Shown in pieces: positions 2,786 through 7,286 of a stretch of DNA of 64,000 nt; position 1 is the first letter of the stretch, and each line of letters opens with the position of its first letter. This DNA is from Bacillota bacterium (GTDB taxonomy: Bacteria > Bacillota > Ch66 > Ch109): the NCBI GenBank assembly GCA_013178275.1, contig JABLWZ010000001.1, forward strand, positions 186,001-250,000. The letters are read 5' to 3'. A program made the position numbers and the translations under genes. The notes beneath the pieces are model-generated. The model was not told the DNA's origin. It was given only the letters and a program-made list of their open reading frames with translations, and did not search any database.

Positions 2786-3202
2786 CTATACCGTGTCTCC
2801 CCACTGGATTAACGCCTCCCACTGCTCGCGGCTGACCGGGACCACGGACAGCCGGGGCAGCCGCACCAGCTCCCACCCGGGGAAGCGTCCGCTGGCCTTG
2901 ATCGAGGCCAGGCTCACCGGTTTTATCTTCCTGACCGGCGATATCTTCACGACCAGACGCCGGGGGTCGTGCAGAACGGGATCGGGAAAAGGCTCACTGG
3001 TGACCCGGCCCAGACCGACCGCCGCCTTCTCCTTCCCGGTGTGGTAGATGATCACCTGGTCGCCCGGCCGCATCCGCGAGAGGTTTTTCAGGGCAGTGGG
3101 GTTCTTCACCCCGTCCCACACGCTTTCCCCCTCCTTGACCAGGTCGTCCCAGGAAAACTCATCCGGCTCGGTCTTCAAAAGCCAGTAGTGGTTTAGCTTC
3201 AT
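2786..3202 (-). CDS. EVE domain-containing protein
   Basis: 138-residue protein that is essentially a single EVE domain (PUA-like fold, related to YTH domains). The typical opening YWLLKTEPDEFSWDDL (residues 6-21), the WDGVKNPTALKNL block and the GDQVIIYHTGKEKAAVGLG strand pair are present. EVE proteins are thought to bind modified bases in DNA or RNA. Here the gene follows the TlpA-like selenoprotein by only 9 bp and precedes the pyruvate-kinase-C-like gene. No restriction or defence partner is visible nearby, so a housekeeping nucleic-acid role is as likely as defence. Confidence 0.85.
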   Translation of the reverse strand: MKLNHYWLLKTEPDEFSWDDLVKEGESVWDGVKNPTALKNLSRMRPGDQVIIYHTGKEKAAVGLGRVTSEPFPDPVLHDPRRLVVKISPVRKIKPVSLASIKASGRFPGWELVRLPRLSVVPVSREQWEALIQWGDTV

Positions 3203-3211
3203 TGTTCCTTC

Positions 3212-3937
3212 CTACTTCGAGAGATTATCGATTTGAGACTGCAGCTTCTGCATACCGCCATCATCGTCCCAGCCCACGGAGGGATAGCGCAGCACCCCCT
3301 GGCGGTCTGCCAGGAAACTCGCGGGTATCCCGTAAACCTCGTACTTTTCGAACACCCTTCCGTCACTGTCTAAAAGCACGGTGGCCTCCACGGGTTTCTC
3401 CGCGAAGAACTGGTTGGTCGCTGATTCGCTGTCGCTGGTCACGATGACGATCTCTATCCCCTGCTGTCTCCACTCCCCGGCCTTCTGCCGCAACTGCAGC
3501 ATCTCCCTGACGCAGGGGCCTCAGCCGGTGGAGAAGAACAGGAGGTAGACCGTCTTACCCGAGAACGCCGTCGGGAAACTGACGCTTTGCCCGCCGCGGT
3601 CCGCCAGGGTGAAGGACGGCAGGACCGAGCCGACCCTGGGCGGTCCGGAGGTCACCGGGGGAGCCTCCCCGGGCTGATTCGTCTGCGGACTGGCCGCCTG
3701 CGACGGCTGCTTGATCGACTCGCTGGTTTTGCCCGCGGGTTGATCCGCGGCCGGCTTACCAGTCTGGCTGTTATCCGCCGGGGAAGGGGTCTGGCTGGTT
3801 GTGCCGCTGCTGTTGGCTGGAGGGTTGTTCCCGCCGGGCGGTTTGCCGCCCGGGTTCTGGGTCGTCCCACAGCCGCTGGCGGCCATAGTGAACAATACCA
3901 CCAGGACCGCCAGGATCAAGCGCCGGTGTTTTCTCAT
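3212..3937 (-). CDS. TlpA-like thiol-disulfide lipoprotein with in-frame UGA (selenocysteine) at the active site
   Basis: Translation runs through an in-frame TGA at 3523-3521. The active site then reads STG-U-GPCVRE, a UxxC version of the thioredoxin CGPC motif, at residue 139 of about 241. Start ATG at 3937 follows a strong AGGAGGG site. Residues 1-22 form a signal peptide ending ASGC, a probable lipobox. A long Pro/Ser/Thr/Gln-rich linker (about 25-110) precedes the redoxin domain. After the UGA the fold continues (WRQQGIEIVIVT, DGRVFEKYEVYGIPASFL with cis-Pro, LRYPSVGW), so this is not a decayed gene. It lies directly downstream of a membrane 4Fe-4S protein and a CD1871A-type protein, a known Bacillota neighbourhood. 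Role inferred: extracytoplasmic thiol-disulfide exchange fed by the Fe-S protein. Confidence 0.85.
3473..3523 (-). promoter_or_regulatory. Candidate bacterial SECIS element behind the UGA codon
   Basis: Right after the UGA (3523-3521) the mRNA can fold into a stem-loop: CCCC at 3518-3515 pairs with GGGG at 3478-3475, and inside it CTGC at 3499-3496 pairs with GCAG at 3488-3485, with the loop AGTTGCG at 3495-3489. The apical loop lies about 26-32 nt past the UGA, where SelB-binding loops are usually found, and carries a GU. A competing small hairpin CCCTG-cgt-CAGGG also exists. Folding was done by eye. Confidence 0.5.
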
Positions 3938-3974
3938 GTTCTCCCTCCTGTGCTGTATGGATGACATCCTTATT

Positions 3975-4817
3975 TTAACACTTAATCGACCTCTGACCAA
4001 AGCTCCCGAAGGTCCAGGACAGCGCCCGTTCGGGACACGAACCGACACACTTCAGGCAGCGGACACACTCGGGGCTGTCGGGTTTCTCCCAGATCTCTAT
4101 CCGGGCCGGGCAGATCCGCTTACAGGCACCGCACCCGCTGCAGCTTTCCTGGTCGACCCGCATCTGGAACAGGCTTATCCGGTTGCAGAGCGCGTAAAAC
4201 GCCCCCAGGGGGCAGGCGACCCGGCAGAACGGCCTCCAGGTGACCACCATCGCGATCAGGAACACCGCCAGGACGGACACCTTCCACAGGAACAGGCTCC
4301 CCGCCAGGGACCGCAGCGATCCGTTCAGCAGCAGCAGGGGTAACCCAGCCTCCAGGGTGCCCGCCGGGCAGAGGTACTTGCAGAAGTAAGGCGCCGCGAT
4401 CCCCGTCTCCGCCTCTACCAGCACCAGCGGTAGCAGCACGGTCAGGAGCAGTACCAGGTACTTCAGCCAGAGCAGGGGCCGGAATATCTGCAGCTTGAAC
4501 CGGGTCGCTTTCGCCACCAGCTCCTGGAACCACCCGAAGGGACAGAGCCAGCCGCAGATAAACCTCCCGCCAAGCGCCCCGAACGCCGCCACGATCCCGG
4601 CTACGTACAGGGATACGCGCTGGGTCGTCACGGCCAGGGACTGGATCGACCCCACCGGGCACGCCCCCAGCGCCCCGGGACAGGAGTAGCAGTTCAGGAA
4701 CGGCACGCACGCCTGCTTCAGTCCTCCCTGGTAGATGCCGCCTTTTAGGAAACCCGGCAGGTAGATGTTGGAGAGTACCGCCGACGCGAGCTGAACCCAG
4801 CTCCGTATCTCAGCCAT
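3975..4817 (-). CDS. Membrane 4Fe-4S binding protein (NosR/NirI/NapH-like)
   Basis: 280-residue polytopic membrane protein with about five hydrophobic segments. It carries the NapH/NosR-type cysteine motifs CGWLCPFGWFQEL and CRVACPLGAFYAL next to membrane helices, extra Cys pairs near the N terminus (NCYSCPGALGACPVG) and in FCKYLCP, and a C-terminal di-cluster ferredoxin domain (CSGCGACKRICP and CVRCLKCVGSCP). Such proteins pass electrons across the membrane. It lies 13 bp after the CD1871A-like gene and 37 bp before the Sec-containing TlpA lipoprotein, so the plausible role is delivering reducing power to that extracytoplasmic redoxin; this is inference from context. Confidence 0.85.
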   Translation of the reverse strand: MAEIRSWVQLASAVLSNIYLPGFLKGGIYQGGLKQACVPFLNCYSCPGALGACPVGSIQSLAVTTQRVSLYVAGIVAAFGALGGRFICGWLCPFGWFQELVAKATRFKLQIFRPLLWLKYLVLLLTVLLPLVLVEAETGIAAPYFCKYLCPAGTLEAGLPLLLLNGSLRSLAGSLFLWKVSVLAVFLIAMVVTWRPFCRVACPLGAFYALCNRISLFQMRVDQESCSGCGACKRICPARIEIWEKPDSPECVRCLKCVGSCPERALSWTFGSFGQRSIKC

Positions 4818-4830
4818 GCCGCACCTCCAT

Positions 4831-4983
4831 CTATCCTATGCCTATGCACTCAAGGCAGACCCGGACCGCCTTGTGCAGCACCTGGATGGACTCTCCCGCC
4901 GAGAAACCTGCGATTATCATCGTTATCCCCAGCAGCAGCAGGGTGACCCCGGCCGCCGGTCTGCGAATGATTCTTCTTTTGAT
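4831..4983 (-). CDS. CD1871A-family small membrane CXXC protein, apparent AUC start
   Basis: About 50 residues: a basic N terminus (KRRIIRRP), one transmembrane helix (GVTLLLLGITMIIAGFSAG) and the conserved tail VCLECIGIG with its CXXC motif. The family is about this size and is found beside the 4Fe-4S/TlpA pair, as here. No ATG, GTG or TTG lies at the expected start. A GGGGG tract stands 7 nt before an in-frame ATC (4983-4981), which I take as a near-cognate start. The only alternative is ATG at 5067 or 5064, giving a 28-residue extension with a poor ribosome site that looks like untranslated leader. Confidence 0.6.
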   Translation of the reverse strand: MKRRIIRRPAAGVTLLLLGITMIIAGFSAGESIQVLHKAVRVCLECIGIG

Positions 4984-5083
4984 GTTATTACCCCCTGGCT
5001 CGAATTTTGTAGATTCAGTTACTATTGTACCGCAACCGGGTCCTTTTGGGGGCCTATATATCATCATCCCAGGAATTGCCTAA

Positions 5084-6250: not shown

Positions 6251-6589
6251 TCACTTCTCCTTTACCGCCAGGCTGACGATGAAACTGCAGATGGAGAGTA
6301 TCAGCGCAGCGATGATCGCGGTCCCGAACCCCGTGATCTCGAACCCGCGCACCAGTGCGCTGGTGATCCAGAGCATCAGTCCGTTTACCACCAGGGTGAA
6401 CAGGCCCAGGGTCAGCAGGTTGATCGGGAGGGTCAGGAGGAGTACGACCGGCCTGATGGCCGCGTTTGCGATTCCCAGGACGACCGACCCAAAAACCGCT
6501 CCCCCGAAGGTGACGTTGAACCCGCTCACCAGGTTGGCGGTGATCAAGATGCACAGTATGTTCAGGCCCCACCTTAACATCAAGCCCAT
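6251..6589 (-). CDS. PF04020-type four-helix small membrane protein (phage holin superfamily IV-like)
   Basis: 112 residues with four hydrophobic helices and the family pattern of a polar NAAIRPVVLLLTLPIN segment between helices 2 and 3. Proteins of this type are named for similarity to a mycobacteriophage holin but are chromosomal and widespread. ATG at 6589 is preceded by AAGGGG at 9 nt, better than the GTG at 6607 that overlaps the ribosome site. It is the first gene of a pair with the downstream 4Fe-4S protein (19-bp gap). No phage genes are nearby, so a lysis role is unlikely. Confidence 0.8.
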   Translation of the reverse strand: MGLMLRWGLNILCILITANLVSGFNVTFGGAVFGSVVLGIANAAIRPVVLLLTLPINLLTLGLFTLVVNGLMLWITSALVRGFEITGFGTAIIAALILSICSFIVSLAVKEK

Positions 6590-6690
6590 CTTTATGCACC
6601 CCTTCACAATTTTTTCCTTTGTCTATTCTAATGATTCTATGACAGAGAAAATAACTCCTCCGGGGCCGGAAATCAAACTTTGGTCCTAAG

Positions 6691-6806: not shown

Positions 6807-7262
6807 TCAGGACAGCCGCTGCAGCAGCCAGCCGCAGACGTCCCGCACCATCGGAACGCAGATCGTATTTCTCTCGTTGGCCCTGAACTGCTCGTGCTCA
6901 GCGTGGTTATTAAAGTCCAGCCCGACGATCTCCCGGCAGTTGGTGGACCGGTTCTTGCTCGCGAAGTAGTCTATCAGCTCGCCTCCCAGGCTGTACGCGG
7001 GATCGGATTTTTCCTTCCCGCTGTCGCGCCCTTTTATCAGCCCGATCGACATCAACCCCCCGGACAGCGCCCCGCAGGTCATCTGCCTGCGGCTCATTCC
7101 GCCGCCGAAGGCGGTGGCGATCCTGGGCACCGGCGGGTCTTCTATGCCGTAGTGTTTGGCGATGGACAGCAGCACCGATTCGGCGCAGTTAAACCCGGAG
7201 TTGAACAGCTTTTCAGCGCTGTCGATTGTTGCTTCGATGCTCGGCTTCCCCTTTTCGGTCAT
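6807..7262 (-). CDS. C-GCAxxG-C-C family redox-type protein
   Basis: About 151 residues with the family cysteine pattern: NCAES near residue 30, MTCGALSGG in the middle, NCREIVG and a C-terminal Cys in RDVCGWLLQ. The family is linked to electron-transfer or metal-reduction contexts in anaerobes; the exact reaction is unknown. ATG 7262 follows AAGGGGG at 7 nt; a TTG at 7280 would overlap that site and coincide with the predicted transcription start. It has its own sigma-A promoter (7287-7315) and terminator, so it is probably monocistronic. Confidence 0.85.
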   Translation of the reverse strand: MTEKGKPSIEATIDSAEKLFNSGFNCAESVLLSIAKHYGIEDPPVPRIATAFGGGMSRRQMTCGALSGGLMSIGLIKGRDSGKEKSDPAYSLGGELIDYFASKNRSTNCREIVGLDFNNHAEHEQFRANERNTICVPMVRDVCGWLLQRLS

Positions 7263-7286
7263 TTTTTTCGCCCCCTTCAAGGAATA

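Follow-up and report, generated by a model that had tools for sequence, protein, structure and literature searches.

A Redoxin Lipoprotein Gene with an In-Frame UGA Codon and Two Membrane Partners: A Candidate Selenoprotein Cassette in a Bacillota Genome

The Locus and Its Genes

The window considered here, i.e., the whole stretch of DNA that was analyzed (64,000 nucleotides), comes from a Bacillota genome of 4.77 Mb in 55 contigs, and its minus strand carries a cassette of three genes. The features discussed are the following:

4831..4983, minus strand: CD1871A family small membrane protein with a C-terminal CXXC (VCLECIGIG); NF040920 55.4 bits, cut-off 32
3975..4817, minus strand: NapH/NosR-like polytopic membrane 4Fe-4S protein, 280 aa; Fer4_5 62.8 bits (cut-off 22), Fer4 34.5 bits
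3212..3937, minus strand: putative selenocysteine-containing TlpA/ResA-type redoxin lipoprotein, 241 aa when read through UGA, stop TAG
3521..3523, minus strand: UGA codon, predicted selenocysteine (Sec), first residue of UGPC; Cys or UGA in 45/45 aligned relatives
3486..3501, minus strand: candidate bSECIS hairpin UGCUGC-AGUU-GCGGCA, loop 3492-3495, 25 nt from UGA to loop

The preliminary description of this DNA had placed the redoxin gene behind those of a membrane 4Fe-4S protein and a CD1871A-like CXXC protein, and the domain scores listed above agree with both assignments. The middle gene passes the cut-offs of Fer4_5, Fer4, and some small 4Fe-4S domains only. It shares with NapH/MauN the Fer4_5 motifs and the C-terminal ferredoxin-type Cys motifs, but differs from that family in its score (77 bits against a cut-off of 213.05 for TIGR02163) and in an additional N-terminal C-x5-C-x2-CP-x5-CP motif, which 27 or 28 of 28 relatives share, along with every Cys of the cluster motifs. 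The CD1871A protein consists of a positively charged N-terminus, one helix, and the C-terminal CXXC; given the positive-inside rule, this CXXC would lie on the outer face of the membrane. Its start is uncertain, being either the ATC at 4983 or the ATG at 5067. In the region 4960-5067, there is no ATG, GTG, or TTG close to where homologues (∼44–50 aa) would place the start, and an AUC start at 4983 is possible because a strong Shine-Dalgarno-like AGGGGG precedes the ATC; the alternative ATG at 5067 is located upstream of a TACAAT box.

The intergenic gaps are just 13 and 37 nt, so that the three genes are likely placed on one transcript. On the same strand, an EVE-domain gene (2786-3202) that starts 9 nt beyond the end of the redoxin gene may share its transcript. 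Elsewhere in the window, the translation of 6807-7280 resembles the C-GCAxxG-C-C family, some members of which are selenoproteins (PMC13188914).

The UGA Codon and the Selenium Machinery

The redoxin frame starts with an ATG at 3937 on the minus strand, preceded by AGGAGGGAGA, and encodes a signal peptide, the lipobox MAASGC, and then a Pro/Asn-rich linker. The in-frame TGA is codon 139 of 241, in the context FFSTG-U-GPC; past it the frame continues as GPCVREM up to a TAG stop that ends at 3212. A single AhpC-TSA/Redoxin domain spans the codon (AhpC-TSA 77.3 bits, cut-off 26; Redoxin 69.2 bits, cut-off 26.6), and in the alignment the active-site column holds Cys or Sec in all 45 relatives, with the second Cys invariant. 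Thus, three earlier claims hold: that a UGA (3523-3521) stands in place of the first Cys in a CGPC site, giving UGPC; that the protein is intact on both sides of it; and that automatic callers would split the gene, as under translation table 11 the frame does become two ORFs. An in-frame UGA that takes the place of a redox Cys within otherwise conserved protein is one of the features expected of a bacterial SelB-dependent selenoprotein.

The same genome contains a second redoxin of this kind, 47% identical to the first, with TGA at the same codon (FFSTG-U-GACVNEVLQLQP):

L021:6290-6952 (G000:C34): orphan UGA paralogue, on contig 34

Since this paralogue and 16 of the 26 redoxins found beside CD1871A genes in other genomes have TGA at exactly the same codon, a chance UGA is excluded.

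A search for selA, selB, selC, and selD had been suggested as a check, and all four are present in the window genome. SelB scores 336 bits and adjoins a selA-like gene, recognized from its translation alone; a tRNA-Sec with a UCA anticodon (66.6 bits, with ARAGORN in agreement) is located on the same contig as the window; and there are two selD genes, in both of which an in-frame UGA falls within the canonical GUAAK motif:

G000:C1:51560-52480 (L054): selD with in-frame UGA
G000:C23:143036-143962 (L055): selD with in-frame UGA

One of these selD genes is on the window's contig, while the other and selA-selB are elsewhere in the genome. Both UGA-containing copies are assigned to one genome, whose estimated contamination is 6.4%. 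The UGA in both selD genes implies that UGA is probably read as Sec elsewhere in the organism too. A whole-genome reassignment of UGA was also considered and ruled out, because TGA is the ordinary stop of other window genes.

The codon could instead be a true stop, leaving either a pseudogene or only an N-terminal fragment, with the downstream part translated from an ATG at 3502. The two ORFs obtained with table 11 and the ordinary termination of other window genes by TGA (2199-2762, 6251-6607, 6807-7280) are compatible with such a stop. However, UGA is kept at the same codon in many species whose proteins are 30–46% identical, and the downstream half is conserved; the differences between the two paralogues downstream of the codon are distributed as 45/26/54 over the three codon positions, with the minimum at the second; and the Sec machinery is in place, as is a conserved hairpin. 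A true stop is therefore scarcely credible, and the codon at 3523-3521 is almost certainly read as selenocysteine. The preliminary description had named two findings that would speak against its reading, namely a genome without selA/B/C/D, or relatives with a sense codon other than Cys and a decayed downstream domain; the genome has all four genes, and the relatives have Cys or UGA followed by a conserved downstream half. From the sequence data, the view that the redoxin gene is a genuine SelB/SECIS-dependent selenoprotein gene is well supported.

A Gene-Specific Hairpin

In PMC13188914, bacterial SECIS (bSECIS) elements are modeled as a stem of 4–16 bp with a loop of 3–9 nt and a G in loop positions 1–2, located 16–37 nt from the UGA and having a minimum free energy (MFE) of at most −7.5 kcal/mol. 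The hairpin at 3501-3486, with 6 bp, the loop AGUU (G second, U next), and an MFE of −8.6 kcal/mol (z −2.76), agrees with this model in every respect, and it falls inside the segment (3473-3523) where a plausible SECIS had been proposed. A longer fold of 40 nt is no better than shuffled sequences (z −0.88). The Rfam SECIS_1 model gave no match in the window genome and was equally silent in the control genomes, while an Rfam search over 3200-4000 returned sub-threshold matches only.

The element recurs in other genes. The sequence GYUGC-AGUU-GCRGC stands at a fixed distance past the UGA in 14 of the 16 UGA cassette genes, which had been collected without reference to RNA, and in both paralogues of the window genome. 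It occupies codons 8–11 after the UGA, i.e., CTG/TTG-CAG-TTG-CAG, the last codon being CGG in the window; the middle Leu is TTG in 16/16 genes, against 18% TTG among Leu codons elsewhere in the same genes. The hairpin is absent from Cys homologues, including the closest one (L093). Its pairs vary to wobble only, with no double compensation, so that the support for the RNA comes from conservation and position and not from covariation.

In the 4.77 Mb of the window genome, the 14-mer by itself is found twice, each time behind the UGA of a redoxin paralogue, and it therefore belongs to this gene rather than serving as a general SECIS; the selD genes have a different downstream hairpin. Since many bacterial SECIS elements are said to bear no mutual resemblance (PMC13188914), a near-constant hairpin is unusual. 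Two UGA redoxins beside CD1871A cassettes, L072 (at 5892) and L075 (minus strand), have unrelated downstream hairpins and form a separate branch, and for these a second origin of Sec within the redoxin-CD1871A partnership is possible.

Distribution of the Cassette

Searches at the family and class levels, where only 3–4 genomes were covered, found no relative beyond the window's own genome, and a protein-pattern search with the redoxin alone found none either, its patterns falling mostly in poorly conserved parts. The comparison was built on two other collections, which overlap, with several records evidently common to both.

The first consists of 40 other CD1871A loci from the same phylum. 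A NapH-like gene adjoins CD1871A at every one of them, and BLAST recognizes a redoxin at 26, whose first active-site codon is TGA in 16 and TGC or TGT in 10; beside the other 14, BLAST recognized no redoxin. Several loci have the redoxin on the opposite flank of the NapH-like/CD1871A pair. No additional gene recurs beside the cassette except in close relatives. The tRNA-Sec, scored as present above 60 bits with weaker matches taken as cross-hits to other tRNAs, was detected in 16/16 genomes with a UGA redoxin vs 5/10 with a Cys redoxin (Fisher p 0.004, kinship ignored).

The second collection comes from a scan of about 85,000 genomes (257 billion bases) with the pattern TGA-N6-TGY-N6-RAR-NN-GYTGCAGTTGCRGC. 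All 28 matches are redoxins with UGA at the first Cys position (the hairpin arms in these sequences being fixed by the search pattern itself), with 98–107 residues downstream of Sec, or 145 in one that carries an extra anchor at its C-terminus. The matches include Syntrophomonas wolfei subsp. methylbutyratica (L105), Desulfotomaculum, Candidatus Desulfopertinax cowenii, and Peptococcaceae, and 22 of the 28 have a NapH-like match beside them, some loci being cut at contig ends. Among 399 genomes of the phylum the pattern occurs in 17, and a reversed control pattern in 0. Two records are peculiar: L103 is a UGA redoxin that shares the hairpin and is found in a MAG labeled Desulfovibrio, either by horizontal transfer or as a mis-binned contig, and L125:1610-2045 combines the UGA redoxin and hairpin with the extra C-terminal transmembrane anchor (∼145 residues after Sec).

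In a redoxin tree built without the active-site and hairpin codons, the hairpin-bearing Sec redoxins form one clade (support 100/99), in which the window redoxin clusters with its paralogue and L122. The Cys redoxin L093, whose host has a tRNA-Sec, is nested in a supported Sec sub-clade (96/85), and this nesting suggests a loss from Sec to Cys. A long-branched Cys protein, L083, is also within the Sec clade, but its placement is unsure.

These data bear on whether the three genes work together. Sec could be real and the cassette nonetheless reversed or separate, with the NapH-like and CD1871A proteins serving another partner and the redoxin merely co-located. This would fit the 14 CD1871A loci at which BLAST recognizes no redoxin while the NapH-like gene is always there, and the loci where the redoxin sits on the opposite flank. 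It would also fit the contig 34 paralogue, in whose surrounding 13 kb no NapH-like or CD1871A gene was found, as judged from translations, so that the redoxin can occur without the cassette; this paralogue adjoins apparent phage structural genes, again from translations only. The redoxins at 26 of the 40 CD1871A loci and the NapH-like genes beside 22 of the 28 hairpin-pattern UGA redoxins argue for an association instead, and we give a separate role of the pair a minor though real chance.

Fold and Likely Chemistry of the Redoxin

A structure model built from 16 relatives (pLDDT 93, pTM 0.88) is closest to a Bacillus thiol-disulfide oxidoreductase (4nmu) and Chlorobium DsbE (3gl3), with a TM-score of 0.88 each, and most Bcp and Prx structures rank below ResA/DsbE. 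The best NCBIfam family is ResA (NF002854), at 69.9 bits and hence under the cut-off of 170. Among the relatives, a Glu three residues past the second Cys is near-invariant and a Pro before the last strands is invariant, both of which are hallmarks of ResA and thioredoxins; ResA carries a CxxCxxE motif. The redoxin thus resembles ResA/TlpA/CcmG-DsbE in fold, membrane anchoring, CxxCxxE, and the position of the cis-Pro, but it differs from them by Sec at the first Cys, by scores below the curated cut-offs, and by the lack of ResB and CcdA in most host genomes.

Two specific functions were weighed. The redoxin might be a Sec version of the ResA apocytochrome c reductase, which would ready CXXCH for haem together with ResB/ResC. 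The nearest structures, the best NCBIfam family, and the Glu that matches CxxCxxE all point in this direction, but the score is far under the ResA cut-off, and among 19 genomes with UGA redoxins ResB is missing in 16 and a DsbD/CcdA domain in 15, in searches that both gave matches in control genomes; the window genome itself has a ResB. The absence of these proteins from most UGA-cassette genomes speaks against cytochrome c maturation as the principal role, and we regard this function as improbable.

Alternatively, it might be a selenoperoxidase that reduces peroxides outside the membrane, with the cassette or other thiols regenerating the selenol. The AhpC/TSA domain is consistent with this. 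However, both positions of UxxC are fixed in 45/45 relatives, as in a thiol-disulfide oxidoreductase; the peroxidatic TxxC/TxxU motif is absent, UxxC being found in all Sec and CxxC in all Cys relatives; and ResA and DsbE are nearer in structure than most Bcp and Prx entries. Moreover, the peroxidatic Cys of peroxiredoxins aligns with the second Cys of the redoxin and not with Sec. Sec sits at the position of the attacking Cys of the CxxC pair, and a thiol-disulfide role appears likelier because the nucleophile of a peroxiredoxin would occupy the other position. Relatives are classed as Prx-like in the literature (PMC1794560), which favors a peroxidase, but we still consider this function unlikely.

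That literature provides the closest known proteins. The redoxin shares with the Prx-like thiol:disulfide oxidoreductase selenoproteins the PF00578 domain (77.3 bits vs 26) and the UxxC motif, here UGPC. For Syntrophomonas wolfei, a selenoprotein survey from 2006 (PMC1794560) includes a “distant Prx-like thiol:disulfide oxidoreductase”, which is probably an orthologue of the UGA redoxin family. The sources consulted give such proteins singly, and in them the cassette, the gene-specific hairpin, and their spread are not described. SaoT and other UxxC thioredoxins (PMC13188914) are alike in being UxxC selenoproteins encoded in operons, but SaoT corresponds to NF040730, of the SAO selenoprotein operon, and the window redoxin has no match to NF040730 in NCBIfam. 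Judged by its sequence, the redoxin is a new member of an established group, the UxxC Prx-like/TlpA selenoproteins, and sits within a conserved cassette.

A Possible Electron Relay

The three proteins suggest a path for electrons across the membrane, as the preliminary description had proposed in outline. Electrons would enter at the cytoplasmic 4Fe-4S clusters of the NapH-like protein and travel, via membrane-embedded clusters, to the outer-face CXXC of CD1871A; the resulting dithiol would reduce the Se–S bond of the UGPC lipoprotein, and the selenol would in turn reduce disulfides, other oxidized sulfur, or peroxide substrates outside the membrane. We infer this relay, including the direction of flow, the order of the partners, and the substrate, from the presence of the NapH-like gene at 40/40 CD1871A loci and the lack of DsbD/CcdA in 15/19 UGA-redoxin genomes. 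For the explanation as a whole, an exported, lipid-anchored UGPC selenoprotein served by a NapH-like/CD1871A relay, we see the chances as evenly balanced.

More tentatively, the cassette may be an iron–sulfur-driven counterpart of DsbD/CcdA, with a gene-specific bSECIS kept nearly unaltered across ∼30% protein identity. Low-potential electrons would then pass through the NapH-like protein and the CXXC micro-protein to the selenol lipoprotein, which would provide reducing power outside the cytoplasm in anaerobes without DsbD/CcdA. The proposed role in common with the DsbD/CcdA transmembrane thiol donors is to supply reducing power to an outer thioredoxin-fold protein, but these have a thiol-exchanging membrane domain where the cassette has a NapH-like 4Fe-4S protein and a CXXC micro-protein, and no homology was detected between them. 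The idea of a replacement is weaker for the window organism than for the group because the searches gave one clear CcdA-like match in its genome, along with a weaker match to DsbD_TM and a ResB.

Significance

Because standard gene calling cuts the redoxin at the UGA, annotation shows a pair of fragments and conceals the connection with two uncharacterized partners. A literature search linking CD1871A with a selenoprotein found nothing, and no description of the CD1871A/NapH-like cassette or of a gene-specific SECIS was found in the reviews searched by term, although the neighborhood papers of Haft (2023, 2025) may contain one. Many anaerobic bacteria have the UGA redoxin together with these membrane proteins, and its near-constant hairpin offers a clean system for studies of SelB recognition. 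If the relay is true, it would explain how outer thiols are reduced in anaerobes that lack DsbD/CcdA and would give the CD1871A family its first function. The redoxin may form the end of an unrecognized route that exports electrons from the cell.
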